A stretch of 64,000 bases of DNA from assembly GCF_003390845.1 (NCBI RefSeq), contig NZ_QMEK01000001.1:1240001-1304000 (forward strand), in the 5' to 3' direction. Both the position numbers and the translations under genes were made by a program. The notes under the pieces were generated by a model, which saw only the letters and a program-made list of their open reading frames with translations, did no database searches and was not told where the DNA came from. How positions within the stretch are numbered: position 1 is the stretch's first letter; each line of letters opens with the position of its first letter. The DNA comes from Tropicimonas sp. IMCC34043 (GTDB taxonomy: Bacteria > Pseudomonadota > Alphaproteobacteria > Rhodobacterales > Rhodobacteraceae). Below are positions 34,275 through 49,066 of this stretch, piece after piece.

Positions 34275-34311
34275 GCGGGTGTAGTTCAATGGTAGAACGG
34301 CAGCTTCCCAA
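34275..34311 (+). pseudogene. 5' half of host tRNA-Gly(CCC), cut in the anticodon loop (attL)
   Basis: The acceptor strand GCGGGTG, D arm GTTC-loop-GAAC, left anticodon stem GCAGC and loop TTCCCAA are present, then element sequence begins. The missing half lies 14.7 kb away at 49023-49066; joining both restores perfect acceptor, D, anticodon and T stems. The gene as it stands cannot give a mature tRNA. Confidence 0.9.
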
Positions 34312-34318
34312 ACATACG
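34305..34318 (+). repeat. attL core: TTCCCAA followed by arm ACATACG
   Basis: The 7-bp core TTCCCAA (34305-34311) is followed by ACATACG (34312-34318). At the other end CGTATGT (49016-49022) precedes the same core. In the excised circle these would form a symmetric site: CGTATGT, core, ACATACG. This is the expected layout of a tyrosine-recombinase core site with a 7-bp crossover region. Confidence 0.8.
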
Positions 34319-34421
34319 CGTTTACCCCCGACACCTTTGAGAACGTTGCAAGACGGTTGATTTCATTGCACTAATCGCCGCAACGTCACCACGACGTGTT
34401 ATACCGCGTCCCAATCGGCGA

Positions 34422-34441
34422 CCTACAAAGCGCCTACAAAG
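34422..34441 (+). repeat. Left arm-type repeats CCTACAAAG x2
   Basis: CCTACAAAG at 34422-34430 and 34433-34441, 11 bp apart, just before the integrase start. The same word recurs with the same spacing at the right end of the element. Likely integrase arm-binding sites. Confidence 0.6.
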
Positions 34442-34453
34442 TGGTGATGAGAG

Positions 34454-35542
34454 ATGTCCAAACGCACAACGGTCAAGCTGACCGAAACCTCCTGCAAAGG
34501 TGCGCCTGCAAACGCGAAGCTCTGGGACTCAGAGATCAAGGGGTTCGCGCTGTTCACAGGCAAGACGACGAAGACCTTCTACTTTCAGAAGGACGTTCAC
34601 GGCAGAACGACGCGCGTGAAGATCGGCAACTTCCCCGAGGTGTCGGCGGGCATCGCGCGCGGCGAAGCGATCCAGCTTGCCGCCGAACATGCGACGGGCG
34701 TCGCAGCGAAGAAGCTGCGGGCCAAGCGGATACCCACGCTTGAGGACGCAACGACGGCTTACCTCGCGCGCCCGAAACTGCGGTCTGAGCACAACAAGGA
34801 CTCCGTTCAGCGGCAGGTTCACAACCACTTGAAAGACTGGCTCAAGAAGCCGCTCGACGAGATCACGAAGGACATGTGTGTGAAGGCACACGCGCGCATC
34901 GCACCGAACGGTCAACGGGCGGCGAACCATGTCCTCAAGTCATTCCGTTCAATCTACAACCACGCGCGGCGTGTCCACGATCTGCCCGAATGCCCGACGA
35001 TGGCGATTGAGTGGTTCCCTGAACTGCCGTCGCAAGAGATCATCGACGATCTCGGCGCGTGGCGCGATGCCGTGTCAGCCCTCGAAAACCCTGTTCACAC
35101 GGCCTACTATCGCTTCTTGCTGTTCACGGGCCTTCGCTTCGACGAGGCGCGTTCTCTGCGGTGGGATCAGGTTCACGATGACCACCTGCACCTGCCCATG
35201 ACGAAGAACGGACGCGCTTTCGACCTGCCCCTGTTCGACCTGCACCACGAGGTGTTGAAGCCGATGCGGCAGTTTCACAGCGAGTATGTTTTCCCCGGCA
35301 CGCGTCACGCCGTGCACCTGAAATCGCCTGAGCGCATCGCATGGTCGGCACACACGCATCGGCGCACCTTCGCGACCATCGCGACGACGGAGGCAGAACT
35401 GCTTGAGGAAACAGTCGGTCGGCTGCTGAACCACACGCCCGCATCTGTGACAGGGGCACATTATATCGTGGTTGACCACCAGAAACTCCGCAAGCCAATG
35501 GGTCAGGTCGTCGAGGCGTTTAAACGCATGGACCTGATCTGA
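34454..35542 (+). CDS. int: Tyrosine recombinase (integrase)
   Basis: A 362-residue phage-type integrase. An N-terminal arm-binding domain of the DUF4102 style (residues 1-90, including LWDSEIKGFALF and VKIGNFPEVS) is followed by a SAM-like core-binding region and the catalytic domain: Arg in TGLRFDEARSLRW, Lys in MTKNGR, His-x-x-Arg in HTHRRTF, His in LLNHT and nucleophile Tyr in GAHYIVV. All six catalytic positions appear present. ATG 34454 is 143 bp from attL, with arm-type repeats in between. Confidence 0.93.
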   Translation: MSKRTTVKLTETSCKGAPANAKLWDSEIKGFALFTGKTTKTFYFQKDVHGRTTRVKIGNFPEVSAGIARGEAIQLAAEHATGVAAKKLRAKRIPTLEDATTAYLARPKLRSEHNKDSVQRQVHNHLKDWLKKPLDEITKDMCVKAHARIAPNGQRAANHVLKSFRSIYNHARRVHDLPECPTMAIEWFPELPSQEIIDDLGAWRDAVSALENPVHTAYYRFLLFTGLRFDEARSLRWDQVHDDHLHLPMTKNGRAFDLPLFDLHHEVLKPMRQFHSEYVFPGTRHAVHLKSPERIAWSAHTHRRTFATIATTEAELLEETVGRLLNHTPASVTGAHYIVVDHQKLRKPMGQVVEAFKRMDLI

Positions 35543-35558
35543 CTGCGCGTTTAAACGC
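35516..35558. repeat. Tandem 31-bp repeat with palindrome GCGTTTAAACGC
   Basis: The 12-bp palindrome GCGTTTAAACGC occurs at 35516-35527 and again at 35547-35558, each followed within 11 bp by CCTGAT, giving two tandem copies of a unit 31 bp long that straddle the integrase stop codon. A perfect palindrome spaced about three helical turns apart looks like a repressor or excisionase operator. Confidence 0.6.
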
Positions 35559-35839
35559 AACTACCTGATTTAGTGAGATTTTCTACTTGATAAGACTTGC
35601 AGGACGGTCGAAGGCGCGCTATCTTTCGACTCGTTAGAAACCCGTCTTGGCCGTGATGGAACGTGCACGGCTCAAGGCTGCGGATTGACCCGAGAGGGTT
35701 GACCACGGGGATCAACAGAGTTGGGTGGTTGTGGGTCAGCCAATAGTGATCCCATCCAAGCTTATGGAAAGCTGAGAAGCCAAGCTCTGCCTCGGGACGC
35801 GCAGCGAGACATCCAACCCTTGAACGGGAGATGTCTACT

Positions 35840-36046
35840 ATGCGTGCATCCACGACTGAACTGATCGACCCTGCCTTCGATACGGCGCAAGCCGCTCACT
35901 ACATCGGCTACTCCAAATCCACCCTCGAATGGTGGCGCACGGATGGTCGCGGTCCCCGCTACTACAAGGCCGCTGGCCGCGTTCGCTATCGTAAGTCCCA
36001 TCTCGATGAATGGCTCGCGAGAGGCCTCGTCGAAACGCGGGGCTGA
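35840..36046 (+). CDS. Excisionase/AlpA-like helix-turn-helix protein
   Basis: A 68-residue protein built around a MerR/excisionase-type winged helix: FDTAQAAHYIGYSKSTLEWWRTDG, then the typical GPRYYKAAGRVRYRKSHLDEWL. GGGAG at 35826-35830 sits at good distance from ATG 35840; the upstream ATG 35831 is too close. Such proteins act as recombination directionality factors or early activators (AlpA-like). The stop is 2 bp before the primase ATG, so both are probably co-translated. Confidence 0.85.
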   Translation: MRASTTELIDPAFDTAQAAHYIGYSKSTLEWWRTDGRGPRYYKAAGRVRYRKSHLDEWLARGLVETRG

Positions 36047-36048
36047 TC

Positions 36049-38493
36049 ATGGAAATCATCAAACAGTTGGCAGCCCTCGGTAACACGGGGGCGCACACCG
36101 AAGGCTATGTTGACCGTGCGAAGGGCAAGTTTGCCTATCGCAAGGTCGATGGGCCTATCACGGTGGACATGATCGCGGCACACCTCAACGGCACACAGCC
36201 GCTCGGCATGTATCTGAACGTGGACGAGGCGCAGCAGAAGTCACACTTCCTCGTGCTCGACTTCGACGATCACGACAAGAAAGGCATCGCCTATCAGCCG
36301 ACGCTCGAAGTCGCGATGCACCTTGCCGCGCGCGAAATCCCGTTCCTCGTGTTCCGCTCCGGCGGAGGGCATGGCTATCACATCTGGCTTGCCTTCGAGA
36401 ATTCGCGCCGCGTCGATACGATCAAGGAGGACGCGAAACGCCTGCTCGCAGGCGTGGAAAGCGACGGCGCGACCTTTGTCGCCGTGTCGTCGGGCAATCT
36501 CAACCGCGCCGTCATGAACGCCAAAGGGCAGAAGATCGGTGTTGAGCATGGCGTCGAAGTTCTGCCCAAGGGCTTCGGCGAGCAGAACGTCGCTCTGCCT
36601 TGCTCACGCGCGAGTGTGCCCATGCGCCTCGAAAAGGACGGCACGACGGTCAGCCTTGTCGAGTGCGCGCTTGACGACCTCGAATTGCAGTTCGTGCCGA
36701 CAAAGAAAGCTGGCCGCAAGAAAGCAGACGACGCCGCAGGCGTGGACAACGACGCGGCCTTCGATGCCTTCATTCAGAAATATGATCCCGACAACCGCGA
36801 CGAATGGGGCGCTGCGGGCATCTGCCTGCAAGCGGCGTTTGGCAAGGAAAACGCATGGGCGCGCGGGCGATGGGTCGAATGGTCGAAGACCTCGCCGAAA
36901 TATCGCGCAGGCGATGAAACCGAATGGGACGGCCTGTCAGGCGCGAACCAATACTCACCCCTGTCGTTCTGGCGCATCGCGAAGGAACACGGCTACAGCG
37001 GCGATTGGCCGTTCAAGGCGGCAGAGCAGCGAAAACTGCTCGCGCTCGACTTCCTCGCCGACACGCGGATTCTGCGCGACCAATCCGACGTTGCCTATGC
37101 CGAGTTGAAGCCGCGCGAGTGGGTTCGCATCGACACCAACGACTTCAAGAACCGCTGCGCCTACGGAATGCTTCGCGAATACGGCAAGCTGCCGCAAGAG
37201 CAGGACGTGAAAGGCGCGCAGATGATCGCACTTGCACAGGCAGCAGAGACCGCGCCTGAGCATGTCGATTTGCGGTTCGCGCGTGTCGGCGGCAAGCGAT
37301 ATGTCTTTCTCGCCGATCCTGCCCGCACGATCATCGAGATCGACGACGAGGGTTGGCGCGTCAACAACGATGCCCCTGTGCAGTTCCGCAAAGGCGTCGG
37401 CTTGCCCATGTCGCTGCCCGAACAAGGCGAGTTGTCAGACCTGATCAACTTCTTGAACGTGGACGATGACTCGATGGTGTTCCTGCTTGCGTGGATGGTC
37501 ACGGCGATCATCAACCCCGGCCAACAATGCCCTATCGCCATTCTCGACGGTTCGGCTGGCTCGGCCAAGTCATCGACCCTAGCAACCCTGATCGAAATCC
37601 TCGATCCGCGCGTCGGTGCGCAGGCAGGCGAACCTGGCTCGGAAGATGACCTCGTCGTGACTGCCTATCAATCGGCTGTCATGTCCTTCGACAACGTTGA
37701 AGCCCTAGCGCGCCTGTCTGACGCCTTGTGCCGCCTCTCGACGGGCGGCGGGTTGAGCAAGCGAAAGCTGTATTCTGACGGTGACGTGTTCGCGGTCGAT
37801 GCGATGCGGCCTTTGCTGATCGCGGGCCTCGATCCAACGTTCTACAAGCAAGACCTCATCGAGCGGATCGTTCGCGTCACCCTGACACGCCCCAAAGCCT
37901 ACATGGACGAGGACGAGTTTCGCGCCTATCGGGCGGCGAACATGGCGCGGTGGCGCGGCGCGCTTTACAGCCTCGTCTCGCGCGTGCTGCGCGACGTTCA
38001 TTCGGTCAAGCAGACGAGTTCGCGTTTCGGCGTGTTCTCTCGGGCAGGCGAGTGTGTCGCGCGCGCGCTCGGCAAGCCTGACGGCTGGTTCGGCCTCGCC
38101 TATGCCAAGATGCGCCTTGAAATGGCCGAGGAAGCAGCGACGGCGGATAGCGTCTACATCTTCCTCGTCGATTACCTTGCCGCAGGTGACAACTTCATCG
38201 GCACCAAGGTCACGGCGACGGCGGCTGAGTTGTTCCTTGAGATGAAAAGCACGCTCGCCGATCTGTCGAACCTGATCTCGATGAAAGACGTTCCGGGGAA
38301 CGCGCGGGCGATCTCGCCGCGCATCGTGCAGGCATCGACGCTGCTTGAGAAGGCCCACGGCTGGCGCGTGTCGCGTGGTCGGCATCGCGAGTTCATCTTT
38401 GAGAAGGTCGCGAAGGTCGAGGCAACGGCAGACGACATTCTTGCCCTGATGCGTGACCATCAGAACGGCATCGCTGACGCCGCAGGCTTCTGA
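36049..38493 (+). CDS. Primase-polymerase/helicase fusion protein
   Basis: An 814-residue replication protein. The N-terminal archaeo-eukaryotic-type primase domain has its catalytic DFD at residues 71-73 and the SGGGHGYHIW motif at 104-113, like the TOTE-type and phage-satellite primases. A PriCT-like helical domain follows (around 240-330: YDPDNRDEWGAAGICLQAAFG and YSPLSFWRIAKEHGY). The C-terminal superfamily-3-like helicase has Walker A DGSAGSAKSS near residue 502 and Walker B VMSFDNVE near 543, with a later Arg-rich segment RIVRVTLTRPK. ATG 36049 immediately follows the previous stop. It probably replicates the element from the adjacent repeat region. Confidence 0.85.
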   Translation: MEIIKQLAALGNTGAHTEGYVDRAKGKFAYRKVDGPITVDMIAAHLNGTQPLGMYLNVDEAQQKSHFLVLDFDDHDKKGIAYQPTLEVAMHLAAREIPFLVFRSGGGHGYHIWLAFENSRRVDTIKEDAKRLLAGVESDGATFVAVSSGNLNRAVMNAKGQKIGVEHGVEVLPKGFGEQNVALPCSRASVPMRLEKDGTTVSLVECALDDLELQFVPTKKAGRKKADDAAGVDNDAAFDAFIQKYDPDNRDEWGAAGICLQAAFGKENAWARGRWVEWSKTSPKYRAGDETEWDGLSGANQYSPLSFWRIAKEHGYSGDWPFKAAEQRKLLALDFLADTRILRDQSDVAYAELKPREWVRIDTNDFKNRCAYGMLREYGKLPQEQDVKGAQMIALAQAAETAPEHVDLRFARVGGKRYVFLADPARTIIEIDDEGWRVNNDAPVQFRKGVGLPMSLPEQGELSDLINFLNVDDDSMVFLLAWMVTAIINPGQQCPIAILDGSAGSAKSSTLATLIEILDPRVGAQAGEPGSEDDLVVTAYQSAVMSFDNVEALARLSDALCRLSTGGGLSKRKLYSDGDVFAVDAMRPLLIAGLDPTFYKQDLIERIVRVTLTRPKAYMDEDEFRAYRAANMARWRGALYSLVSRVLRDVHSVKQTSSRFGVFSRAGECVARALGKPDGWFGLAYAKMRLEMAEEAATADSVYIFLVDYLAAGDNFIGTKVTATAAELFLEMKSTLADLSNLISMKDVPGNARAISPRIVQASTLLEKAHGWRVSRGRHREFIFEKVAKVEATADDILALMRDHQNGIADAAGF

Positions 38494-38790
38494 TCCAAAT
38501 TGGTTGGATCGAAATAGTTGGATCGCGGTTTTCGCGGTCCGACGCCTTTTCGCGGGCAGCGTTGTAACAGTTCGTGACCTGCGGTCGATCCAACTAATTC
38601 ATGGATCGGTTGGGGCACGTTCGGGCTGGCTATGACGCGGTGCGATGCGCTCGGGCGTTGGGCGCAACGCAAAAACGCAAATCGGGGTGGATTTCAAATC
38701 TATATACGCGAAATCAATGGATGGATGGATCGCAGGTCACAGCTTTGTTTCATCCATCCATCCAACTATTACGCGCAAGGGATTTTAAAA
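38490..38790. repeat. Repeat-rich candidate replication origin
   Basis: TGGATCG (either strand) occurs five times: 38505, 38519, 38586 (inverted), 38602 and 38726. TAGTTGGAT occurs three times: 38515-38523, and inverted at 38588-38596 and 38760-38768. An inverted pair GTGACCTGCG (38574-38583) / CGCAGGTCAC (38731-38740) and TGGATGGATGGATCG / CATCCATCCATCCAAC blocks add symmetry, and ATTTTAAAA follows at 38782. Iterons next to a primase-helicase gene are the layout of a replicon origin. Confidence 0.6.
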
Positions 38791-39150
38791 CCCATGGTGG
38801 TTTGCCGTTTTGCGTTGCGCCTGACGGATTCTCTCAGGATCGCCCGAACCGAATACGGGGCAGCGACTCCACCTTCTTTCGTGCTCGCTGCCTGCCCGAT
38901 GATCGCTCACCTACAAGCCACCTACAAACCGCATTACCGCACCAAGCAATATCAATAGGTTAGCGGGCCAGAACGTATGTTGTCTGACCATACGTCAGAA
39001 GGCAGGCACAACATGTCGTGGTGGGTGGATCATAGCACCACAATACTCACCCGATGCAACAGAAGGCCCGAAGGGGACCCCCTCCCACTGAGAAGCGGAC
39101 CCCCGCACCACCCTCGGACAGAATTTTTCAGAATTTTTCGCACAACCGCA
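38494..39150. other. 657 bp intergenic region after the primase-helicase
   Basis: No protein-like ORF. The left part holds the iteron cluster described at 38490-38790; the right part holds two CCTACAA words at 38910 and 38921 (11 bp apart), the same words as in the integrase arm sites. The remainder, up to the HEPN-like gene, shows nothing recognisable. Confidence 0.5.
38910..38928 (+). repeat. Internal pair of CCTACAA words
   Basis: CCTACAAG (38910-38917) and CCTACAAA (38921-38928), again with an 11-bp period. They match the arm-type repeats at both ends of the element but lie in its middle; they may be an additional integrase or regulator binding site. Confidence 0.45.
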
Positions 39151-39693
39151 TCAAACATCGTCAGGTGGTCCCGGCCAAGCCCACGTCCTGCCTGAGACCT
39201 TGGTGAGGTGCGCAAGCTGAGCATGGACCGTATCTGAGACATGGGCATTGACCCAATCCACCAAATCCTCCCAATGGCGCGGTGCACCTAGGCAGAGTGT
39301 CATGTTGATGGTGAACTTTACGTCCACCCGATCCGGCTGAACATCATAGTCGATAGCGGTGCCCACGGTTTCGTGGTCGCCATGATGTGCATGACGCTTG
39401 TGCCGAAGGTCCATCAGTTCATCGTGAGTGGGTTGAAGGCGTTCGGGAACTTGCGCGCGGGTCAGTTTGGTTACACCCGTTGTCTCCGTGAAAAGTCGGC
39501 CATACGCGGTGACAAGCGCGGAAGTCAAAGTCTCGACCTCGAGCATGAATTCCATCGTCAGTTCGACTTCGAGGGATTTCAACCGCCCATACGCATACGC
39601 GACTTGCTGCGCTGCATTCATCATAAGGATCGCTCGCTCTAAGCGTTTACGCTCCCTATCGAATTGAGCCAAGAATTCATCGTTTGACATCAC
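39151..39693 (-). CDS. HEPN-like accessory protein, possible defence or toxin gene
   Basis: A 180-residue, mostly helical protein on the strand opposite to the rest of the element. The segment DELMDLRHKRHAHHGDHET contains Arg followed by four to six residues and His, the shape of the HEPN ribonuclease active-site motif, at the end of a long helix. Helices before it (YAYGRLKSLEVELTMEFMLEVETLTSALVTAYGRLF) fit the HEPN four-helix bundle. Accessory genes at this location in satellites often confer phage defence. Homology is not proven; it is a hypothesis from motif and position. Confidence 0.5.
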   Translation of the reverse strand: MMSNDEFLAQFDRERKRLERAILMMNAAQQVAYAYGRLKSLEVELTMEFMLEVETLTSALVTAYGRLFTETTGVTKLTRAQVPERLQPTHDELMDLRHKRHAHHGDHETVGTAIDYDVQPDRVDVKFTINMTLCLGAPRHWEDLVDWVNAHVSDTVHAQLAHLTKVSGRTWAWPGPPDDV

Positions 39694-39829
39694 CCCTCCC
39701 TTTGTCCGCCCAAATTCGGCGAAGCAATGTTTCTTCGCGATTGCAGCATTTTAGGACGATCTGGCCTGAACTCTGGTCGAGATTCAATCGAAGTTTGCCG
39801 ATGATCGAAATGCGCAGCGACTGGCCCCT

Positions 39830-39875
39830 GTGGGCGGCGGTTTCGCGCGCCTAGCTCCTTCTGGCCGCCGCCCAC
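39830..39875. promoter_or_regulatory. Perfect 11-bp inverted repeat upstream of the packaging genes
   Basis: GTGGGCGGCGG (39830-39840) and CCGCCGCCCAC (39865-39875) flank a 24-nt spacer and end 17 bp before ATG 39893. As DNA it could be a divergent operator; as RNA it would form a stable hairpin close to the ribosome-binding site. Either fits control of the late packaging operon. Confidence 0.5.
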
Positions 39876-39892
39876 AACCCTTGTGAGGAAAC

Positions 39893-40156
39893 ATGCAGAT
39901 CATCATCGAAGACAAAGGCGACGCGGTCGCGCTGATCGAGAAAACGGACTCGTCCTCGTCGCAACTCGTCATCCCCGTGTCGAAGGCACAACTCATCCAC
40001 GGGATGAAGGAAGTCCTCGGCGATCCCTTCAAGACGGACGTGTTCATCGGCGACGTGATGCTCGCGAAAACCCGTGACGGCTTGGCCGTTCACACGCAGG
40101 TCGGGCGGTTCTCGATCCCCTACGTTCACGCGTTCCCGCTGCTGTCGGAGGCGTGA
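39893..40156 (+). CDS. Hypothetical protein, first gene of packaging operon
   Basis: An 87-residue protein with alternating beta and helix segments (MQIIIEDKGDAVALIE, AQLIHGMKEVLG, TDVFIGDVMLAKTRDGLAVH). No family is recognised. GTGAGG provides a ribosome-binding site before ATG 39893. It ends just before the portal-like gene, with the stop overlapping GTG 40153. Confidence 0.6.
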   Translation: MQIIIEDKGDAVALIEKTDSSSSQLVIPVSKAQLIHGMKEVLGDPFKTDVFIGDVMLAKTRDGLAVHTQVGRFSIPYVHAFPLLSEA

Positions 40157-40158
40157 TC

Positions 40159-41517
40159 ATGAGGCCGCAGAAGCCCCGGCACGACCGCCGTATGCAGGAC
40201 TACTACCTGATCCGCGACTGTCTCGAAGGCGAGCGGCAAATCAAGGATCAAGGGGAACTCTACACCCCGAAGCCTGACGGCATGTCGTCCACCAACTATC
40301 AGCATTACATCGACCGTGGGTCGTTCTACGGCGCGCCCGAGATGACCCTTCGCGCCCTCGTCGGCCTCGCGCTGCGCAAGGATCCCGTCATTCGCCTGCC
40401 TTCGCGCCTCGAACCGATGCGGCTGCGCGCGACCAACGACAAAGCGCCGTTGCAGGTGCTCATCGAAGACATGGTGCGCGAAGTCACGTCGATGGGGCGT
40501 TTTGGGCTGATGCTCGACTTCCCGCGCGCAGGCACAACGGCTATCACGACGCCGCACTTCGTGACATGGACTGCCGAGACGATTGCGGATTGGGACACGC
40601 AGTATGTCAATGGTCAGAAGGAACTGACCCGCGTCGTGCTCGTGTCAGACGAGGACTTCGACGGTGCCGACGTTTTCGTTGAACTCGTCCTTGAAGACAC
40701 GATCTACAAGATTCGCCGCTTCATCCGTGAAGGTCAGCCCGAGCGCCGCGTGGACATTGGCGACGAGATCATTCCGACGATCAACGGGAAGGCGCTGAAC
40801 TACATTCCCTTCCTGATGGTCAGCCACGAAAGCTTGCGGCCCTCGGACGTGAAACCGCCGCTGCTCGATCTGTGCAACCTCGCCATCTCGCACTTCAAGA
40901 ATTCCTGCGACCGCGAGCACGCAATCTTTCTGAGCGGATCGCCGACGCCGTGGATCGCGGGCAGCGTGCCGATTGACCGCGTGCCGAAGGCAATCGGTTC
41001 GGGCACGGTGTGGAACCTGCCCGAAGGCACGCAGGTCGGTATGCTCGAATACACAGGCGCGGGCGTCGCCTCCATGAAGGAGTTGATGCAGGAGAAAATC
41101 GACATGATGGCGACGCTCGGCGCGCGGATGTTGTCGGTCAACATGAACCGCAACGAGACCATCGACACAGCGACGCAGCGCACGCGGTCAGAGCTGTCGT
41201 TGCTGCACTCGACGGTCGTCATGGTGGAGGCGGCGCTTACCCGCCTGCTGCGCCTCGCTGCTGAGTGGCTTGCGGCATCGCCGGACGACGTGTCCGTTTC
41301 GTTCTCGCGCGACTTCATCGAGATCGCGATGGAACCGAAGATGGTCGAGGCGCAGTTGAAACTGTGGCAAGGCGGCATGATCTCCCGTGCGACCCTCTAC
41401 GAAAACCTCCAGCGCGGCGAGATCGCGCGGGCAGACCGCCCGTGGGAGGACGAGAAAGACATGATCGACGAGGAAGGCGGCGATCTGTCTGCGCCTATCA
41501 TTCGCCCCGTGGCGTGA
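40159..41517 (+). CDS. Phage portal-like protein, DUF4055 type
   Basis: A 452-residue protein resembling DUF4055 portal proteins: the N-terminal YYLIRDCLEGERQIKDQG and GAPEMTLRALVGLALRKDPVI, an IPFLMVSHESLRP stretch in the middle, a long C-terminal helix region (QEKIDMMATLGARMLS and MNRNETIDTATQRTRSELSLL) and a final acidic tail. Portals form the dodecameric DNA gate in a capsid vertex and dock the terminase. GGAGG at 40147-40151 selects ATG 40159. No capsid or scaffold gene follows. Confidence 0.75.
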   Translation: MRPQKPRHDRRMQDYYLIRDCLEGERQIKDQGELYTPKPDGMSSTNYQHYIDRGSFYGAPEMTLRALVGLALRKDPVIRLPSRLEPMRLRATNDKAPLQVLIEDMVREVTSMGRFGLMLDFPRAGTTAITTPHFVTWTAETIADWDTQYVNGQKELTRVVLVSDEDFDGADVFVELVLEDTIYKIRRFIREGQPERRVDIGDEIIPTINGKALNYIPFLMVSHESLRPSDVKPPLLDLCNLAISHFKNSCDREHAIFLSGSPTPWIAGSVPIDRVPKAIGSGTVWNLPEGTQVGMLEYTGAGVASMKELMQEKIDMMATLGARMLSVNMNRNETIDTATQRTRSELSLLHSTVVMVEAALTRLLRLAAEWLAASPDDVSVSFSRDFIEIAMEPKMVEAQLKLWQGGMISRATLYENLQRGEIARADRPWEDEKDMIDEEGGDLSAPIIRPVA

Positions 41518-42156: not shown

Positions 42157-42173
42157 GAACGTGGAGATGACGA

Positions 42174-42569
42174 ATGAGCGAACAGAACGACAAGCTGATG
42201 GAGCAGTTCATCGAAAAGGCAGCGCCGCGCCTGCTCGATGCCCTGAAAGACTCCATCGCGAAGCAGATCGAGGAAAGCACGCGCGGGCTGAAAGAGTCGG
42301 CGACGCGGATGCTCGACGAGATCAAGGACACGAAGCGCGCAGCAGCCGAGAAGGACGACGCGCTGGCCGCGACGACGAAACTGCTCGCGGCCCTCGACGA
42401 GAACGACCGCAAGCGCGCAGCCGAAAACGCTGGTCTCGACCGTTTCTTCAAAGCAGCCGACACGGTGCGCCTGACGCGCACGCAGGCGCGCGACCCGAAA
42501 ATCTATCGCGAAGCGAAAGCGGCGGCCGAGAAAGCGGGCACGCGGCTGGAGATCACCGACGATGAATGA
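42174..42569 (+). CDS. Coiled-coil hypothetical protein
   Basis: A 131-residue protein that is almost entirely charged alpha-helix, predicted coiled coil from about residue 20 to 85 (heptad-like Leu/Ile/Ala pattern) with a short C-terminal tail. Its size and content resemble small scaffold or connector proteins, but there is no specific signature. GGAGATG fits ATG 42174. Starts 18 bp after the intrinsic terminator. Confidence 0.55.
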   Translation: MSEQNDKLMEQFIEKAAPRLLDALKDSIAKQIEESTRGLKESATRMLDEIKDTKRAAAEKDDALAATTKLLAALDENDRKRAAENAGLDRFFKAADTVRLTRTQARDPKIYREAKAAAEKAGTRLEITDDE

Positions 42570-42897
42570 AAGTCATCTCGCGCGATTGCTCGCCTCCTAC
42601 TTCCTGTTTCACCACACGGACCCAACCATGACGCGGGATCGCATTCGGATCGACGAATACGGGGGTCTTTTCGTCGATGGTGAACCGATGGACGACAAGA
42701 CGCGCCTGCGCGTCGGCGTGCTGACCTGCATCATCCTCGATTGCGTCGGCGGCGACACTGACCCCGACATCTCGAACCGTCTCGGCGATCATTTCGCCTA
42801 TCGCGACGCGACGCTCTGGGTCGCGAAACTGCTGCGGAAAGGGGCATTCATTCACGTTCTCGGTGAGTTTCTGCACAGGCGGGGGCAAGCCGCATGA
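42562..42897 (+). CDS. Hypothetical protein
   Basis: A 111-residue protein with no recognised domain; it contains an FLFHHTDPTMTRDRIRIDEYGGLFVDGE segment and two Cys. It overlaps the preceding gene by 8 bp and the terminase gene by 4 bp (ATGA), so it is clearly translated as part of the packaging operon. Confidence 0.6.
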   Translation: MNESHLARLLASYFLFHHTDPTMTRDRIRIDEYGGLFVDGEPMDDKTRLRVGVLTCIILDCVGGDTDPDISNRLGDHFAYRDATLWVAKLLRKGAFIHVLGEFLHRRGQAA

Positions 42898-43484
42898 ACA
42901 TGCACCGTGTCCTGTCAGTTCTGCCGAAAGAGACGGGCACCGGGCGTCGGGGCGTTCTTCGGAACCGTCCCGACGTAGGCGAGATCGTCGTCGATCTCGT
43001 CCTTGGCCGCCGTTCAGGTGCAGACATCGCGAAGCGCACGGGCGTCGATTACGAGACGGTTCAGCGGTTCAAGAAGCGTTTCCTGACCGACGAGGTTCGC
43101 AAGGTCGTTCTCGCGGAGTCGCAGCAGGCCGAGGCGAACAAGCTCGATGCGCAGATCAACGCGGGACAGGACGAAGTGCAGCACGGCCTTCGGTCGATCA
43201 TCGACGAGCAGAAGAAGCTCTACAAGGAAATCCGCGCGAACCGCGACCTCGACGGCAACGAAGGCATCCTCGCGATGCTGTTGCGCGACCAAGGGCAATC
43301 CCTCGAACGCCTGCTCAAGTCCTACACCGCCTTGAAGGAGAAAACGACCATCGTGCTTTCGATCAACGAAAGCCCCGAATGGTCCAAGTTGCAGGAAGTG
43401 CTCTACGCGACCTTCGCCGAACACCCCGAGGCATTCGACACCTTCCGCGCCCTCACGCGTGAGCGGAGGTTGCGGCTTGAATGA
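42894..43484 (+). CDS. Probable terminase small subunit
   Basis: A 196-residue protein with an N-terminal helix-turn-helix (GRRSGADIAKRTGVDYETVQRFKKRF, residues about 39-64), then an oligomerisation-type helical region and a C-terminal tail. This plan matches small terminases that bind the pac or cos site, and the position directly before the large terminase supports it. Overlaps upstream gene by ATGA and ends inside the start region of the large subunit. Confidence 0.7.
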   Translation: MNMHRVLSVLPKETGTGRRGVLRNRPDVGEIVVDLVLGRRSGADIAKRTGVDYETVQRFKKRFLTDEVRKVVLAESQQAEANKLDAQINAGQDEVQHGLRSIIDEQKKLYKEIRANRDLDGNEGILAMLLRDQGQSLERLLKSYTALKEKTTIVLSINESPEWSKLQEVLYATFAEHPEAFDTFRALTRERRLRLE

Positions 43485-44271
43485 ACTCGGCCTGTTCCTT
43501 CGCACCCTTGAGGAACGCGTCGATCCGACCGCGCTGTTCGAGCGTGTCGTCGGCTCGGCCTGCGATCCGTGGCAGCATCAAATGCTCACGAACACGTCGC
43601 CCTTCGCGATGGTGCTGGCCTCCCGTCGTATCGGCAAGTCGCAGACGACAGCCATTCTTGCGGCACAAACCGTTGCGGCACCTAACCAAACCGTTCTGAT
43701 CCTCTCCTATACCCTCAATCAGTCGCAGTTGCTGTTCAAGAAATGCCTGCAAGCTTGGGAGGCCATGAACTTACCCATCCAGAAAACGCGCCTGACGCAG
43801 CAAGTCATGGACCTAGAGAACGGCTCGACCATCGTCTGCGTTCCTGCGGGACAAGACGGGGCATCGGCTCGTGGCTATGGCGTCAAGGACGGCGGCATTT
43901 TGATCTACGAGGAAGGCGCGTTCATCGCGGATGAGGTTTTCGACGCGACGCTGCCCATTCGCGAAGATGGAGGTCGCATCCTCCTTATCACGACGCCGGG
44001 GCGGAAGGGCGGCTTCGCCCACAAGCTCTGGACCGAAAACGACGACGTTGAGAAGATTACGGCTCGCTCAACAGATTTGCCGCGCATGGCCGAGAAGATC
44101 GCCTTCGACCGCCGCTTCATGCCGCCGATGCAATTCGCGGTCGAGCATGAACTGCGGTGGATGGGCGGCGGCACACCCTTTTTCGACACTGACACCATCA
44201 CCAATGCCTTCACCGACACCCCTGAACTGATCCTTGGAGACTTCTATGCAGGAACTCACGCAAATCGGTGA
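43477..44271 (+). CDS. Terminase large subunit, ATPase half
   Basis: A 264-residue protein carrying the packaging motor ATPase: Walker A LASRRIGKSQTT (residues about 43-54), adenine-binding features, Walker B ILIYEE near 150, coupling motif LITTPG near 176. It ends with a DTDTITNAFTDTPEL segment, where a normal TerL continues into the nuclease. I prefer TTG 43477 because GGAGG at 43465-43469 lies 7 bp upstream; GTG 43459 is an alternative. Its end overlaps the next gene by 26 bp. Confidence 0.8.
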   Translation: MNELGLFLRTLEERVDPTALFERVVGSACDPWQHQMLTNTSPFAMVLASRRIGKSQTTAILAAQTVAAPNQTVLILSYTLNQSQLLFKKCLQAWEAMNLPIQKTRLTQQVMDLENGSTIVCVPAGQDGASARGYGVKDGGILIYEEGAFIADEVFDATLPIREDGGRILLITTPGRKGGFAHKLWTENDDVEKITARSTDLPRMAEKIAFDRRFMPPMQFAVEHELRWMGGGTPFFDTDTITNAFTDTPELILGDFYAGTHANR

Positions 44272-44956
44272 GCGGCTTGTCTTGCCCTGTTCTGACCCCG
44301 CCGTGACCGTCGTCCCCGGCTATCGCCGTTACCTCGTCGGTCTCGACATTGCGCAGTCACGCGACCAGAACGCCTTTTCGATCATACTCGACGAGCGCGT
44401 GCCGCAGTGGACAAAGTATGCGCAAGAACTCGGGCCGCGTCGCCGTGTCGTCGTCCGCGCCGAGCGCATCCCGCTCATGGCCTACACGGAACTTGCCGTT
44501 GTGGTGCGCAACCTGATGATGGACAAGATGCTGACCGACCGTGCCTATCTCGTGGTGGACGCGGGCGGGCCGGATCGCGCGTTCTGCGATCTGCTGAACA
44601 CGAAGGCCGTGATGCACACGCGGATGCAGATCGTCGGCGGCGAAAACGAGAATGAGACCCGCGAGCGCGACATCCGCTTCAACAACGTCGGCAAGAACTT
44701 CTTGATCGGTTCGCTCAACTCGGCCCTCCACACGAGCGAATTGCAAATCGGCAATTTTCCGATGCGGCGTGAGTTGCAGACCGAACTCGAGTCCTTCGAG
44801 ATGACCGTGGGCACGTCGGGGCGCGTTCGCATCGAAGGCGGCACGGACGCTGGGCACGCGGACATCGCCATGGCAACCGCGATGGCCTACTGGCTGTCCG
44901 ATCATCGAAGCGTCGGCGCGCATATCGGCGAGACGCCGCTGCGCGGCTATTGGTGA
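44246..44956 (+). CDS. Terminase large subunit, nuclease half
   Basis: A 236-residue RNase H-like domain corresponding to the C-terminal half of TerL: first acidic motif VGLDIAQSRDQNAFSI (Asp near residue 32), second in LVVDAGGPD (about 108), and a late DAGHADIAMATAMAYW with acidic residues that complete the metal site. ATG 44246 has GGAGA at 44235 and overlaps the ATPase gene by 26 bp in a different frame. The two halves together equal one TerL of about 500 residues, so this is a natural gene split or an ancient frameshift. Confidence 0.8.
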   Translation: MQELTQIGERLVLPCSDPAVTVVPGYRRYLVGLDIAQSRDQNAFSIILDERVPQWTKYAQELGPRRRVVVRAERIPLMAYTELAVVVRNLMMDKMLTDRAYLVVDAGGPDRAFCDLLNTKAVMHTRMQIVGGENENETRERDIRFNNVGKNFLIGSLNSALHTSELQIGNFPMRRELQTELESFEMTVGTSGRVRIEGGTDAGHADIAMATAMAYWLSDHRSVGAHIGETPLRGYW

Positions 44957-45164
44957 GCGCCGCAGCGAAACCGGTGTAGCGCGGGCGTTGTGGTGTCGGC
45001 GGGTATCATCGCAGGGCAAACGGCGGAACCGCCTTCGCTGACGCACTGCTGCGCCTCGTGCGGGCGGCAACGTTCTCGAATGTTAAGCAACACCCTCTGA
45101 TGGCGAGGCTTTTCGCGTCGTGAGACTTTCTCTTTGTCCACTGAACACAAGGAGCAAGGACAAC

Positions 45165-45269
45165 ATGAAGAAGTCTTACGACGAAACTTGGAGGGAAATC
45201 GAGACGCTGCGCGACTTCCTGACGGAATGTGGCACTCGTTTCAGCGTCGGCAAGGAGGTCTCGGCATGA
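45165..45269 (+). CDS. Very small protein of the packaging operon, first of two
   Basis: A 34-residue peptide, MKKSYDETWREIETLRDF at its start, encoded with a double purine-rich ribosome-binding site (AAGGAGCAAGGA) at 45150-45161. Its stop overlaps the next ORF's start by 4 bp (ATGA). The strong site and the coupling argue it is real; function unknown. Confidence 0.55.
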   Translation: MKKSYDETWREIETLRDFLTECGTRFSVGKEVSA

Positions 45270-45400
45270 GCCCCAGCGTTCGCAACAGGCTGCGCATCAT
45301 CAGCCGGGGCCTCGACCGCAGCTGCCACGTTCGGCTGACCTATCTCGGTCGCACCTACATTTTCATGGAAGGTCGGTGGTGGACCGCGCCCGACCTCTGA
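45266..45400 (+). CDS. Very small protein of the packaging operon, second of two
   Basis: A 44-residue basic peptide, predicted to fold as a small beta structure (HVRLTYLGRTYIFMEGRWW). AAGGAGG at 45251-45257 precedes ATG 45266. Function unknown; the twin tiny, well-initiated ORFs just before a terminator resemble small regulatory or anti-host proteins of phages and satellites. Confidence 0.55.
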   Translation: MSPSVRNRLRIISRGLDRSCHVRLTYLGRTYIFMEGRWWTAPDL

Positions 45401-45423
45401 CGGCATCAAAAAAATGTCACGCG

Positions 45424-45449
45424 AAGGGGCGGCCATCGAGCCGCCCCTT
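45424..45449. terminator. Bidirectional terminator between convergent transcription units
   Basis: Stem AAGGGGCGG (45424-45432) paired with CCGCCCCTT (45441-45449), 8-nt loop, followed by TCATATTCT on the plus strand. It sits between the tiny ORFs and the minus-strand DUF3489-like gene. Confidence 0.7.
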
Positions 45450-45470
45450 TCATATTCTAAGTTCGCGATC

Positions 45471-46010
45471 TCAACCAGCGGGCTTCGCCGCCGCGCGCAA
45501 AGGCACGACGTTCGACCCCTTCGGCAGCATCAGGTGCAGTACGCCATTCTCACGTCGCACGCCGAGGCCAGCGGCCTTGAGGTCGGTGTAGATCGCAGCC
45601 GAAGCCACGTCGCGTTTCCAGCCCGTGGCCGTCGCGAGTTGATCCAACGTGCAGCCGTTCAGAAGGGCCTGAACCATCGCGTGCCGCTTCGTGCCTTCCC
45701 GGATCGGGCGGACATTCGACAGATCGGTTGTCGGCTCGACGAGAACGCGGTCTGCTAAGGCGCGAACTTTTCTGATCTTCGGCATGTCAACACCGCCAGC
45801 GGCGCGGGCGTCCTGCCGCGCGTCAGCAAGCACCTTGACGGCCTTGCGAGCAGCAGCAATTGCCGCCGTCTTCGACTTCGCGCCCGTGATGGCGTTCGCA
45901 ATGTCATCGTCCGTCCAGCACTCGACGAGGAAGTCGAAGCCGTCCTTGTCATAGTTGGCGACTGCGTACTCGCGGACGGCGGCGATGAGGTCTGCTTTCG
46001 AGATGGTCAT
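45471..46010 (-). CDS. DUF3489-like protein
   Basis: A 179-residue protein. The C-terminal third, RHAMVQALLNGCTLDQLATATGWKRDVASAAIYTDLKAAGLGV, is a helix-turn-helix resembling the winged-helix DUF3489 proteins common in alphaproteobacteria. The middle is Ala/Lys-rich. GGAGC precedes ATG 46010; the extension to 46052 has no signal. It may regulate the neighbouring restriction genes or the element, unproven. Confidence 0.6.
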   Translation of the reverse strand: MTISKADLIAAVREYAVANYDKDGFDFLVECWTDDDIANAITGAKSKTAAIAAARKAVKVLADARQDARAAGGVDMPKIRKVRALADRVLVEPTTDLSNVRPIREGTKRHAMVQALLNGCTLDQLATATGWKRDVASAAIYTDLKAAGLGVRRENGVLHLMLPKGSNVVPLRAAAKPAG

Positions 46011-46082
46011 GTCAGTTGCTCCGTTGCTGGGGCCGCAGATGGCCCGTGACATGACGTTCGGACCTTCCGTAGAAGCGATGCA

Positions 46083-46097
46083 ACCGAAATATTCGGT
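46083..46097. promoter_or_regulatory. ACCGAA/TTCGGT inverted repeat, possible operator
   Basis: ACCGAA (46083-46088) and TTCGGT (46092-46097) are a perfect 6-bp inverted repeat with a 3-nt centre, in the divergent region between the DUF3489-like gene and the restriction gene, just upstream of the latter's TTGACT box. Confidence 0.45.
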
Positions 46098-46115
46098 CGT
46101 TAGTTCTATCGTGAC

Positions 46116-46143
46116 TTGACTCGTGAACAGAAGTGCCTATCTG
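46116..46143 (+). promoter_or_regulatory. Promoter of the restriction endonuclease gene
   Basis: TTGACT at 46116-46121 and TATCTG at 46138-46143, spacing 16 bp, placing transcription start about 20 bp before ATG 46169. Confidence 0.45.
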
Positions 46144-46168
46144 GTGGGGACAGAAGAAGGAGCTTCTC

Positions 46169-46972
46169 ATGCTGACCCAGATGACCAACGAAGAACTGAT
46201 GACCATTCCGAAATACGACCGCATTGCGGTTTACCTGTTTCGGCACCTGACCAAGGGATACAGCGCCGCCACGCTCCCCAATGAAATGCTTTTCGATCAG
46301 GAGACTGTCCGGCAGGCGATGCGGCAGGCGGTGGCTGATGGCGTCATTGACCGCGAGGTCGCGAACGTGCCTGACATCAAGTATACCTACGACGCCCGCC
46401 GGAATTTGCCGACCGAAATGGAGCAAGCGGGACCGATGACTTGGTTGCAGAACGGCAAAGGAAAGTACGTCTTGCGGCGCACGCGTCGGAAAAATGTGAT
46501 CGACTTTGACGCCCTCGGTGTCGATCCTGCACTTGAGCCTGTGGTCGATCAGACGCCCAAGTTTATCTCTGCGCTGCTCGGGCAGGACGAGCAGGCGGTG
46601 TTCACGCGGGTTCGCAACGCTCACCTGATTTCCACCTTCCTCGGCTTCCAGTCGATGGCCATCCAAGGCCACCATCGCACAACTGTCAGCTACGGGCAGA
46701 TCGAGATTGACGAAGTTCAGGCGGGTATCGACGGCACGCAGGAGACCATTGTCCCGATCTCGGGCAAGGGCGGGCAGGATCATTTGTCATGGTCGCAGGC
46801 GTTGAACCTGAACACCTATGGGGTTCAGAAGGCGCCGATCCCCGGCCTCGCTGTTCGCAGTCTCGGCCTTTGGCGCGATGATCTCAACACCGTCTGGATC
46901 GTCGAGTTCAGCCCCCACACCGACATTGACGAGATCGAAATCGTCAAGGTGCGGCGTTTCACTTTCCGCTAA
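46169..46972 (+). CDS. Putative type II restriction endonuclease
   Basis: A 267-residue protein located tail-to-tail with a C5-cytosine methyltransferase and near a vsr gene. An N-terminal part resembles a winged-helix domain. A segment IEIDEVQAGID, followed after about 10 residues by IVPISGKGGQDHLSWSQALNLNTYGVQ, gives acidic residues and Lys in the order expected of a PD-(D/E)XK nuclease site. AAGGAG supports ATG 46169. I do not recognise it as a named enzyme; the prediction rests mainly on position. It could have another role, such as replication or DNA repair. Confidence 0.5.
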   Translation: MLTQMTNEELMTIPKYDRIAVYLFRHLTKGYSAATLPNEMLFDQETVRQAMRQAVADGVIDREVANVPDIKYTYDARRNLPTEMEQAGPMTWLQNGKGKYVLRRTRRKNVIDFDALGVDPALEPVVDQTPKFISALLGQDEQAVFTRVRNAHLISTFLGFQSMAIQGHHRTTVSYGQIEIDEVQAGIDGTQETIVPISGKGGQDHLSWSQALNLNTYGVQKAPIPGLAVRSLGLWRDDLNTVWIVEFSPHTDIDEIEIVKVRRFTFR

Positions 46973-48273
46973 AGCGAAGCCTCGATTTCGTGTTGCTTCC
47001 GCTTCGTCGCGCCACTCTTGCGATCCCGCCGCCCGATGGGGTTTTCAATCGACCAGAAGGCGGCGGCTTGCGACATGTCCATGCGCAGCAGCGCATCGTC
47101 GCCCAGAGCGACGGCTACACTCGGTCGCGTCGGTTTTACGCCCAAAGCCTCGATGACCTTCCCAGCGATTGCTCGGGCAAGCGGCGGAGGAACCGCGTTA
47201 CCGATTTGCCGCGCCCCATGCCATTTGGTCTCGTGGAAGCGGAACCAGTCGGGGAAACCGTGGAGGCGTGCCATTTCGCGCACCGTGACACAGCGGGCAA
47301 ATGCGTAATGGATCGGCCGCGGGCTAGTGAACGCGCCTCGCGCAGCATCGGTGCCCGCGCGGAGGGTGTTCGAGACGCCATTGGGTGGCAGTTTGAAGAA
47401 ACGCGAGATCGGTTCGACTTTGCCGGGTTCAGTCGAGGCAAAGCGGCGTCGAGAGATTTCGGTGTGGTCGGTGCGCAAGCTGGAAGTCAACAGCGCAGGG
47501 TTCCAGAGCCGAGGGTGGCCGAAGTGCCATGCGTCATTCCCGATGCAGCGCAGTTCCTTAGCGTAGTCGCTTGGTTCCCCAAGGGCCTCGACAGACACCT
47601 CATCCGTCGCAAGCAAGGCGTCGAAGGCCTCGGCGTCAGGCAGATCGCCAAGTGCATCGCAACAGGTCGGGCCACTAGGACTGCCGCAGTTGGTCGTTCC
47701 TGCCGCGTGCGTCGTCTGCGCGGGGTATTCGGGAATAGGTGTGTCGCCGCGCGCGCCGAGTAGGATGAACCTCTTACGGTCCTGCGGCACACCGTGATCT
47801 GCGGCGTTCAAGACCTTCCACTCGCGCCGCACGCGATAGCCGCGCGCCTCGAATGCCTCGATGAGTTCGACGAGGAACTTCCGGTGCTTCCCGACTGTCA
47901 GCCCCTTCACATTCTCGAAAACAAAGGTCTTCGCCTTCAACTGATCGACGATCCGCACGAAGTCGAGCACGAGCGAGTTGCGAGGATCGTCGAGGGCACG
48001 CTGCCCGATCATCGAAAACCCTTGGCAAGGTGCGCCGCCGAACACCACGTCAACGTCACGGTCGCCGATGCCTGCAAGCGAACGAATCTCGTCGCCCGTC
48101 AGGTCGGTGACGGAACGAGCGATAACCGCGCAGTCTGGGAAGTTGAACTTGTGGATCGCAGCATGAACAGGGTCGATCTCGACAGCGGCAACGACATCGA
48201 ATCCAGCCTGCTCGAAGCCGAGGCTCATCCCGCCTGCGCCCGCGAATAGGTCGATTCCGATAGGCCGCTTCAT
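46969..48273 (-). CDS. C5-cytosine DNA methyltransferase
   Basis: A 434-residue modification enzyme with the motif set in order: I DLFAGAGGMSLGF, IV GAPCQGFS (catalytic Cys), VI FENVKGL, VIII QDRKRFILLG, IX region and X RQIGNAVPPPLA. The variable target region (about residues 230-330) gives no known specificity by eye. ATG 48273 follows GGAGGGG. It is convergent with the endonuclease-like gene and its stop overlaps that stop by 4 bp. Methylation by it makes a T:G mismatch hazard that Vsr repairs. Confidence 0.92.
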   Translation of the reverse strand: MKRPIGIDLFAGAGGMSLGFEQAGFDVVAAVEIDPVHAAIHKFNFPDCAVIARSVTDLTGDEIRSLAGIGDRDVDVVFGGAPCQGFSMIGQRALDDPRNSLVLDFVRIVDQLKAKTFVFENVKGLTVGKHRKFLVELIEAFEARGYRVRREWKVLNAADHGVPQDRKRFILLGARGDTPIPEYPAQTTHAAGTTNCGSPSGPTCCDALGDLPDAEAFDALLATDEVSVEALGEPSDYAKELRCIGNDAWHFGHPRLWNPALLTSSLRTDHTEISRRRFASTEPGKVEPISRFFKLPPNGVSNTLRAGTDAARGAFTSPRPIHYAFARCVTVREMARLHGFPDWFRFHETKWHGARQIGNAVPPPLARAIAGKVIEALGVKPTRPSVAVALGDDALLRMDMSQAAAFWSIENPIGRRDRKSGATKRKQHEIEASL

Positions 48274-48337
48274 CCTGCCCCTCCGTTGATGCGTTTTGCG
48301 CAACGTATCGTGGGCGACGCGATTTGCCCACCGAAAT

Positions 48338-48745
48338 CTAGGCGTCGAGGAACGCGGCGACGCGCTCGACTGTGGAAGAAAGGTCGCGTAGCTCACACTG
48401 CCAGACCACCATCGCCTGCCAGCCTTTGTCGCCGAGCAGGGTTAATACTCGGTTGTCTCGGGCCTTGTTCGCCTCGATCTTCGGCAACCAGTATTCTGCT
48501 CGTGACTTGGGGGCCTTGCCCCACCGACACCCGTGCCCATGCCAGAAGCAGCCGTGAACGAAGATCGCCTTGCGCCGTGCGGGAAAAACCAGGTCAGGCG
48601 ATCCGGGCAGGTCGCGCCGATGAAGTCGATACCGATAGCCCTGCGCGTGCAAGGCACGCCGCAGGATCAACTCGGGTTTGGTGTCTTTCTGACCGACCTT
48701 CGACATGATGAAGGATCGACGGTCGGGCGTGACGTGATCGGTCAT
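48338..48745 (-). CDS. vsr: Very short patch repair endonuclease
   Basis: A 135-residue Vsr nicking enzyme that repairs T:G mismatches made by deamination of methylated C. Conserved core: RRSFIMSKVGQKDTKPE (start), GSPDLVFPARRKAIFVHGCFWHGH (catalytic Asp, Zn and DNA-binding His/Cys) and the terminal ARDNRVLTLLGDKGWQAMVVWQCEL. ATG 48745 is the reasonable start; the longer frame simply reads through the tRNA gene on the other strand. It is 64 bp upstream of the methyltransferase on the same strand and likely co-transcribed. Confidence 0.92.
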   Translation of the reverse strand: MTDHVTPDRRSFIMSKVGQKDTKPELILRRALHAQGYRYRLHRRDLPGSPDLVFPARRKAIFVHGCFWHGHGCRWGKAPKSRAEYWLPKIEANKARDNRVLTLLGDKGWQAMVVWQCELRDLSSTVERVAAFLDA

Positions 48746-48792
48746 GCGGAAAGAATAGTGTCTCCGGTCGCTGGCATGAAGGCGCTTTGTGC

Positions 48793-48821
48793 TTGAAGCC
48801 GCCACACTGAAACGGTATTCA
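48793..48821 (+). promoter_or_regulatory. Promoter of the element-borne tRNA-Gly
   Basis: TTGAAG at 48793-48798 and TATTCA at 48816-48821 are 17 bp apart, placing the start at about 48828, four bases before the tRNA. The tRNA therefore looks independently expressed. Confidence 0.65.
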
Positions 48822-48831
48822 GATCGACGTT

Positions 48832-48905
48832 GCGGGTGTAGCTCAATGGTAGAGCATTTGCTTCCCAAGCAAGTGACGAGGGTTCGATTCCCTTCACCCG
48901 CTCCA
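48832..48905 (+). tRNA. tRNA-Gly(CCC) carried by the element
   Basis: Full cloverleaf of 74 nt including an encoded CCA: acceptor GCGGGTG/CACCCGC, D stem GCTC/GAGC, anticodon stem TTTGC/GCAAG with loop TTCCCAA (anticodon CCC, reads GGG), T stem GAGGG/CCCTT. The acceptor and T arms are almost identical to those of the split host tRNA; the D and anticodon stems differ. It lies 111 bp inside the right end of the element. Confidence 0.95.
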
Positions 48906-48908
48906 AAT

Positions 48909-48961
48909 TTTTGTAGGTGGCACGCGCTGCCTACAAAACGCCTACAAAACGCCTACAAAAC
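48909..48961 (+). repeat. Right arm-type repeats, CCTACAAAACG x3 plus one inverted copy
   Basis: CCTACAAAAC(G) at 48930-48940, 48941-48951 and 48952-48961, in perfect 11-bp register, plus TTTTGTAGG inverted at 48909-48917. These match the two repeats before the integrase gene. The 11-bp period puts every copy on the same face of the DNA helix. Likely right-hand integrase or excisionase arm sites. Confidence 0.65.
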
Positions 48962-49015
48962 ACGCGGAGCGTCTGATCTAACCGCTTGATGATGCAGACG
49001 GTTTTTGGCTGAGAA

Positions 49016-49066
49016 CGTATGTTTCCCAAGCTGCATACGAGGGTTCAATTCCCTTCACCCGCTCCA
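49016..49066 (+). pseudogene. attR: CGTATGT, core, and 3' half of host tRNA-Gly(CCC)
   Basis: CGTATGT (49016-49022), core TTCCCAA (49023-49029), right anticodon stem GCTGC, variable ATAC, T arm GAGGG-TTCAATT-CCCTT and acceptor CACCCGC with TCCA, ending at 49066. Complements 34275-34311. The half alone has no promoter of its own and cannot make a tRNA. Confidence 0.9.

Follow-up and report, generated by a model that had tools for sequence, protein, structure and literature searches.

A 14.7-kb integrated element in the alphaproteobacterium Tropicimonas sp. IMCC34043 interrupts the host gene for tRNA-Gly(CCC) and carries a complete tRNA-Gly of the same anticodon, here termed the cargo, which most likely replaces the broken gene. 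The element lies between the two halves of that gene, at 34275-49066 of a 64,000-nucleotide stretch (the window; contig NZ_QMEK01000001.1, positions 1,240,001 to 1,304,000), and all coordinates refer to this stretch. The broken gene, the 7-bp core at which it is cut, the cargo, its status as sole intact copy, and the recurrence of the pattern across an integrase lineage are read directly from the genomes; that the cargo replaces the broken gene is well supported by comparison. About two dozen related elements share the pattern, so that an important host gene is probably swapped at each entry. We assign this destroy-and-replace explanation, taken as a whole, a probability of roughly 0.85.

A glycine tRNA gene broken in its anticodon loop

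The features that carry the argument are as follows.

34275-34311, plus strand: 5' half of the host tRNA-Gly(CCC) gene, ending in the anticodon loop (attL); from fusion and alignment
34305-34311, plus strand: shared 7-bp core TTCCCAA at attL (second copy at 49023-49029)
34422-34441, plus strand: two CCTACAAAG boxes, probable integrase arm sites at the left end (role inferred)
48832-48905, plus strand: complete cargo tRNA-Gly(CCC), called by ARAGORN
48909-48961, plus strand: one inverted and three direct CCTACAAAA boxes, probable integrase arm sites at the right end (role inferred)
49023-49066, plus strand: 3' half of the host tRNA-Gly(CCC) gene, starting with the loop (attR); from fusion and alignment

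An initial annotation of the window had proposed that the halves rejoin into a perfect tRNA cut in its anticodon loop, and this is borne out. Fusing them at the common TTCCCAA yields a 74-nt tRNA that ARAGORN calls as tRNA-Gly(CCC), with complete pairing in the acceptor (7/7), anticodon (5/5), and T (5/5) stems. The intact gene of a genus-mate, G001, matches the fusion at 73/74 positions and the cargo at 63/74; the halves are therefore one gene, which excludes their derivation from unrelated tRNAs. In six further genus-mates the intact gene scores 65-69/74 against the fusion and 66-67/74 against the cargo, and its anticodon arm scores 14-16/17 and 11/17, respectively. The best match to the tRNA in genus-mate G004 is just 74%.

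The same annotation held that the element shares only the loop with its target and does not restore it; this also stands. Exactly 7 bp are common to attP and attB, and ARAGORN finds no tRNA at either junction, so the target is rebuilt at neither attL nor attR. A classical rebuilding island restores the 3' part of its target; this element, with 7 bp in common, does not. The attP core is flanked by its own inverted arms (CGTATGT-TTCCCAA-ACATACG), and CCTACAAA boxes lie close to both element ends.

The attP side at attR (49012-49029, AGAACGTATGTTTCCCAA) resembles the end of the host tRNA 5' half. This likeness is perhaps the trace of a formerly longer carried part of the tRNA.

The element does carry a complete tRNA-Gly with the target's anticodon, as first annotated. 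An ARAGORN scan of the window finds the cargo as its sole tRNA, and a search of the whole 4.6-Mb genome with the 74-nt tRNA returns the two halves, the cargo, and nothing else. Among 45 tRNA-family hits in the genome, the cargo is the only intact Gly(CCC); according to ARAGORN, the remaining 44 include one Gly(TCC), two Gly(GCC), and no Gly(CCC). The cargo is presumably expressed and charged. The earlier statement that it has its own promoter holds in part: a strict sigma-70 scan upstream of the cargo is empty (0.2 promoters expected from shuffles), but a TTGA[A/C] box lies 30-52 nt upstream of 19/19 cargo genes, versus 2.7% in shuffled sequence.

An integrase lineage with matching cargo

The element's integrase was sought in 394 genomes of the host family (threshold E 1e-30). 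At most 5 candidates per genome were scored, so the counts are lower bounds, and one remnant (G098, below) was missed. At least 35/394 genomes contain a match, and at least 25 loci, the window included, have integrase identity of 53% or more. Twenty-three of these 25 (22/22 loci checked together, plus G093 contig 1) adjoin a tRNA-Gly half, with 130-177 bp between its loop and the integrase match; the two others have truncated integrases. In a scan of named genomes, 9/9 loci adjoin such a half, three of them repeating G179, G017, and G383. In all, 29/31 distinct integrase loci lie beside a tRNA-Gly gene interrupted in its anticodon loop. Among the family's more distant integrases (36-39% identity), 0/8 loci adjoin a tRNA-Gly half. 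Named hosts include Ruegeria arenilitoris HKCCD9208, Defluviimonas denitrificans DSM 18921, Rhodobaculum claviforme LMG 28126, and Lutibaculum baratangense AMV1.

Both ends were recovered for 23 elements: nine from one clade of CCC users (the window, G017, G179, G252, G383, a Roseovarius metagenome-assembled genome [MAG], Ruegeria, Lutibaculum, and a Tabrizicola MAG) and 14 others (G054, G059, G078, G093, G094, G164, G240, G289, G290, G361, G380, G387, G401, and G412). All 23 carry a complete tRNA-Gly of the target's anticodon (10 CCC, 13 TCC), near the element end opposite the integrase. This agreement supports, by comparison, the annotated role of the cargo as a complement to the damaged gene. 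Outside the CCC clade, 137 bp separate the cargo loop from the attR loop in 14/14 elements; within the clade the distance is 119 bp (G383 and Lutibaculum), 148 (Roseovarius), 149 (G179), 161 (window), 1199 (G252), or 1345 (Ruegeria). The element runs opposite to the host tRNA in G017 and Tabrizicola, and contig ends split the cargo itself in G361. The loci without identified ends are those of G121, G207, and G263 and MAG loci L142 and L144.

A tree of 29 rows places the CCC users in that one clade (support 92/80, moderate), G380 excepted: this CCC user groups with TCC-using G290 (97/95). G380 shifted from a TCC to a CCC target, and its cargo is likewise CCC.

Pattern searches, which would miss divergent genes, address whether other copies remain. 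For Gly(CCC), the cargo and the 3' half are the sole matches in 6/6 genomes. For Gly(TCC), 15/16 genomes have matches, and in ten these are the cargo and 3' half alone; the extra matches in G412, G078, and G263 are not tRNA-like by eye, that in G361 is the cargo split by a contig end, and G121 and G207 have one match and zero, respectively. Many members break the apparent sole Gly(TCC) gene, a loss that should, by the decoding rules, be hard to survive.

Proposed mechanism and alternatives

In the proposed mechanism, the tyrosine integrase of a satellite-like element would recombine, presumably as the catalyst, at the 7-bp anticodon loop of the host tRNA-Gly(CCC) gene. The host gene would not be rebuilt; the complete cargo tRNA-Gly(CCC) beside the attachment site would take over. 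Because only the loop must match, the element could enter every host with that loop in its glycine tRNA, the rest of the tRNA being irrelevant. After integration the host would rely on the element's tRNA for this anticodon, and would probably need it for growth. Given such reliance, exact excision would restore the old gene, and sloppy loss would have to leave the cargo behind.

Several observations weigh against this explanation. A Gly(TCC) tRNA may also read GGG through wobble, and ARAGORN finds one such gene in this genome; loss of the CCC tRNA may therefore be tolerable in the CCC clade, and the cargo not strictly essential there. A syntenic empty site was sought in the genus and not found, the 10-kb flanks being unmatched near the tRNA in the loci compared (the right-hand neighbour gene sits elsewhere in genus-mates). 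For nine of the 23 two-ended elements, the two ends come from separate contigs of the same genome. G207 contig 1 (L107, L174) has a truncated integrase with a 5' half, and a distant intact Gly(TCC) gene in the same genome has an altered loop (TTTCCAA), like the G078 cargo. G263 and G121 lack a 3' half next to the complete tRNA. Finally, the halves on G093 contig 1 do not fuse to a tRNA, and the cargo there pairs at 4/5 positions in the T-stem. (This genome [L122, L145, L231, L232] contains two lineage integrases, on contigs 1 and 9, and the 5' half beside the contig 9 integrase is compatible with the 3' half of contig 1; probably two elements have undergone a rearrangement with each other.)

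The cargo might instead serve phage or satellite expression, or resist host tRNA-cutting defences, its match to the broken gene being a by-product. Such roles have been proposed for phage tRNAs generally (PMC10865867; statements drawn from this and other cited papers refer to the passages covered), and the element does have defence genes aboard. Yet each element end region has one tRNA, beside the attachment site and always with the destroyed anticodon (23/23), and the cargo is intact even in the collapsed element of G098. This account is unlikely.

Another possibility is that selection altered the cargo anticodon stem to put it beyond the integrase's reach; the initial annotation had likewise proposed that a recoded stem shields the cargo. 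The comparison covers a table of 19 elements, which omits G093 (whose fusion is not a tRNA), G078, Lutibaculum, and Tabrizicola; in the last three the cargo differs from the host tRNA, as judged by eye. The stem differs in 10/11 non-identical pairs, and stem sites are enriched among the differences (38/110 sites, versus 78/627 elsewhere outside the loop); moreover, the G078 cargo has a changed loop base. Natural host tRNAs, compared with one another, show about 0.21-0.23 differences per stem site and 0.13-0.19 elsewhere. However, 8/19 cargo tRNAs are identical to the fused host tRNA and 9/19 have the host's exact stem and loop, so recoding is not required. The window's own cargo is an ordinary gene of other genera. 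Self-protection by recoding was thus rejected as a rule, and selection on the stem is a decidedly improbable account of these cargo tRNAs; a mild protective effect may still operate in some elements.

A reading in which the cargo is native to the host, and the two halves are relics of an older gene or of a duplicate, is scarcely credible. Identity of cargo and fused host tRNA in 8/19 elements and host-like upstream regions in several would fit. Against it, the nearest genus-mate matches the fusion and not the cargo; five other genus-mates score about equally yet have anticodon arms nearer the fusion; the cargo is internal to the element, separated from attR by element-type boxes; and the Lutibaculum cargo is identical to that of a Rhodobacterales element.

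Origin, decay, and transfer

Probable replacement of the broken gene by the cargo raises the matter of where such cargo comes from. That of the window is 74/74 identical to the tRNA-Gly(CCC) genes of G079 and G098, and 99% identical to those of G206, G124, and G406. Because no element proteins were found within 1.5 kb of the G079, G206, and G406 genes, an origin in another genus is the best account of the divergent stem in the window's cargo. Element remnants do occur in G098 and G124. Sequence upstream of the cargo resembles that of the local host gene in G054 (179 bp, 78%), G059 (177 bp, 88%), and G290 (53 bp, 91%), an indication that tRNA genes of host type were captured along with their promoters. 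Nested insertion into another element's cargo was also considered for the upstream likeness and rejected for G059 and G263, whose scanned upstream genes gave matches of host-like appearance or no match.

Proteins related to those of the window occur in a distant relative in G642: an integrase, the products of both large-terminase reading frames (about 34% identity each), and a small-terminase-like protein (25%). Its element, at tRNA-Gly(GCC), is bounded by repeats of about 50 bp, and one end has an intact tRNA: classical rebuilding. G642 rebuilds at a sister tRNA, and this one outgroup suggests that a single kind of element turned from rebuilding its target to replacing it. In G684, a tRNA-Gly half lies beside a related integrase (one end seen).

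The 1.2-kb remnant in G098 comprises a 5' half; fragments of the integrase, terminase, DUF3489-like protein, and methyltransferase; and an intact tRNA identical to the window's cargo, which is the sole Gly(CCC) pattern match in that genome. In G124, an intact cargo-type tRNA (99% identical) precedes a 3' half with a mutated loop, and no integrase was found within the 40 kb searched. The broken host halves have a stem mismatch in G412 and G387, and the cargo there has none; the 5' half on G093 contig 9 has a changed acceptor base, by eye.

Rhodobaculum and Lutibaculum, the latter from the Hyphomicrobiales, share an element that is about 96% identical over three stretches compared, with identical cargo. 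This cargo equals the native tRNA in Rhodobaculum and differs from the broken native tRNA in Lutibaculum: a near-identical element took the same tRNA into another bacterial order.

Together these results allow a broader proposal, which we favour by a little over even odds. The integrase lineage would carry a portable destroy-and-replace module (complete tRNA, spacer, attP, and integrase) that has switched between two isoacceptors with matching cargo, crossed orders, and permanently exchanged glycine tRNA genes; some of the tRNA-Gly diversity in Rhodobacterales would then be cargo of living or dead elements, and the ancestor a rebuilding tRNA-Gly targeter.

Loose halves were also seen elsewhere. 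In G002 (contig 38, position 861; L080), a tRNA-Gly(CCC) 3' half lies near the contig start, besides an intact gene, and this stretch gave no matches to the element proteins tried. In G027 (contig 8; L078, L079), a tRNA-Gly(CCC) 5' half and an intact gene sharing that 5' half are 52 kb apart; this is perhaps another element, one that restores the 5' part.

Relation to known systems

The proposed mechanism matches tRNA-dependent lysogeny, shown with experiments in actinobacteriophages by Guerrero-Bustamante and Hatfull in 2024 (PMC10865867). Both involve a tyrosine integrase, an attB site in a host tRNA gene, a short core (8-17 bp in the phages using it, versus 7 bp here), a target tRNA that is not rebuilt, and a carried tRNA of the same isotype. 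The differences are that hosts here are Alphaproteobacteria, that the target is always tRNA-Gly cut in the anticodon loop, and that capsid and tail genes are not recognised in the window's carrier. The cargo here lies beside attP, with fixed spacing in 14 elements, whereas the tRNA of phage Fionnbharth overlaps the 3' end of an opposite-strand protein gene (PMC10865867). Those phages are temperate; the window element is likened to them in its working and is not classed as a lysogenic phage, because no capsid or tail family was matched in PHROGs.

A host tRNA replaced by phage-related sequence is described in Sinorhizobium meliloti (PMC11476347) and cited again by the same group (PMC12429752). 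There too the host is alphaproteobacterial, and the inactivated tRNA is replaced by a similar isoacceptor from the element; the prophages are said to resemble Mesorhizobium phage Lo5R7ANS (PMC12429752). Islander-type islands (PMC4383910) also combine a tyrosine integrase with a tRNA target; unlike the window element, they rebuild it, as does the distant relative in G642. Phage satellites such as phage-inducible chromosomal minimalist islands (PICMIs; PMC10803314) are likewise small, integrated, and devoid of capsid genes; unlike PICMIs, the window element has its own portal, a two-frame large terminase, and a tRNA. Prophages in tRNA-Gly(TCC) and (CCC) appear in a Paracoccus virome paper, whose passages covered do not mention replacement (PMC6536676), and Gly is among the tRNA targets in a survey of Rhodobacteraceae prophages (PMC8224337).

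A literature search of titles and abstract openings, with most subscription journals outside its scope, found no description of this lineage or of a satellite with a replacement tRNA. What is new is the alphaproteobacterial integrase lineage, the carrier without recognised capsid or tail genes, and the tRNA and attachment site travelling together. The extent of tRNA-dependent lysogeny beyond actinobacteriophages, and its relation to classical rebuilding, were called unclear (PMC10865867); a lineage present in many sequenced hosts, with a classical relative at a sister tRNA, bears on both points. It further suggests a route for exchanging a core tRNA gene between species, and a host made dependent on a mobile element that also carries defence genes.

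Gene content of the element

The remaining features of the element are these.

34454-35542, plus strand: tyrosine integrase, 362 aa, with arm-binding domain (Pfam PF00589, PF13356)
36010-38493, plus strand: AEP-type primase, 827 aa (Pfam AEP-TOTE, PriCT_2)
40153-41517, plus strand: portal protein (phrog_145, E 1.8e-101; DUF4055)
42894-43484, plus strand: helix-turn-helix protein in the small-terminase position (weak Pfam HTH match; role inferred from position)
43459-44271, plus strand: large terminase, ATPase part (phrog_7579, E 7.6e-33)
44234-44956, plus strand: second overlapping reading frame, probable terminase nuclease part (phrog_27743, of unknown function; nuclease role inferred)
45471-46052, minus strand: DUF3489-like protein (below Pfam cut-off)
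46133-46972, plus strand: type II restriction enzyme (PADLOC REase_II, E 3.9e-26)
46969-48396, minus strand: cytosine-5 DNA methyltransferase (Pfam PF00145; PADLOC)
48338-48763, minus strand: Vsr mismatch endonuclease (Pfam PF03852)

This make-up resembles that of a phage satellite: small, with replication and packaging genes (primase, portal, and terminase) and an incomplete virion set. No capsid or tail family in PHROGs was matched by 10 window proteins or by 10 proteins of the G179 relative. The helix-turn-helix protein is a probable small terminase. The large terminase (43459-44956) is encoded by two overlapping reading frames in different frames, as separate proteins or through a programmed frameshift; the arrangement recurs in seven relatives (L077, L116, L117, L118, L136, L140, and L141) and in the distant L279. 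No free form with the window's integrase was found among viral contigs; a search with the lineage alignment gave three relatives at 28-36%, and five phage records matched at 21-26%.

The slot 5' of the cargo tRNA differs between elements. Rhodobaculum (G383) has the window's restriction set, at 95, 93, and 74% identity; G179 has a methyltransferase and a restriction-type protein; and G017 has a DRT2-type reverse transcriptase. Defence-type slots were noted at 45471-48763 in the window, 2804-5190 in L077, and 4076-6486 in L116, and their contents across elements comprise a restriction set with Vsr, DRT2 with an HNH protein, and another restriction pair.

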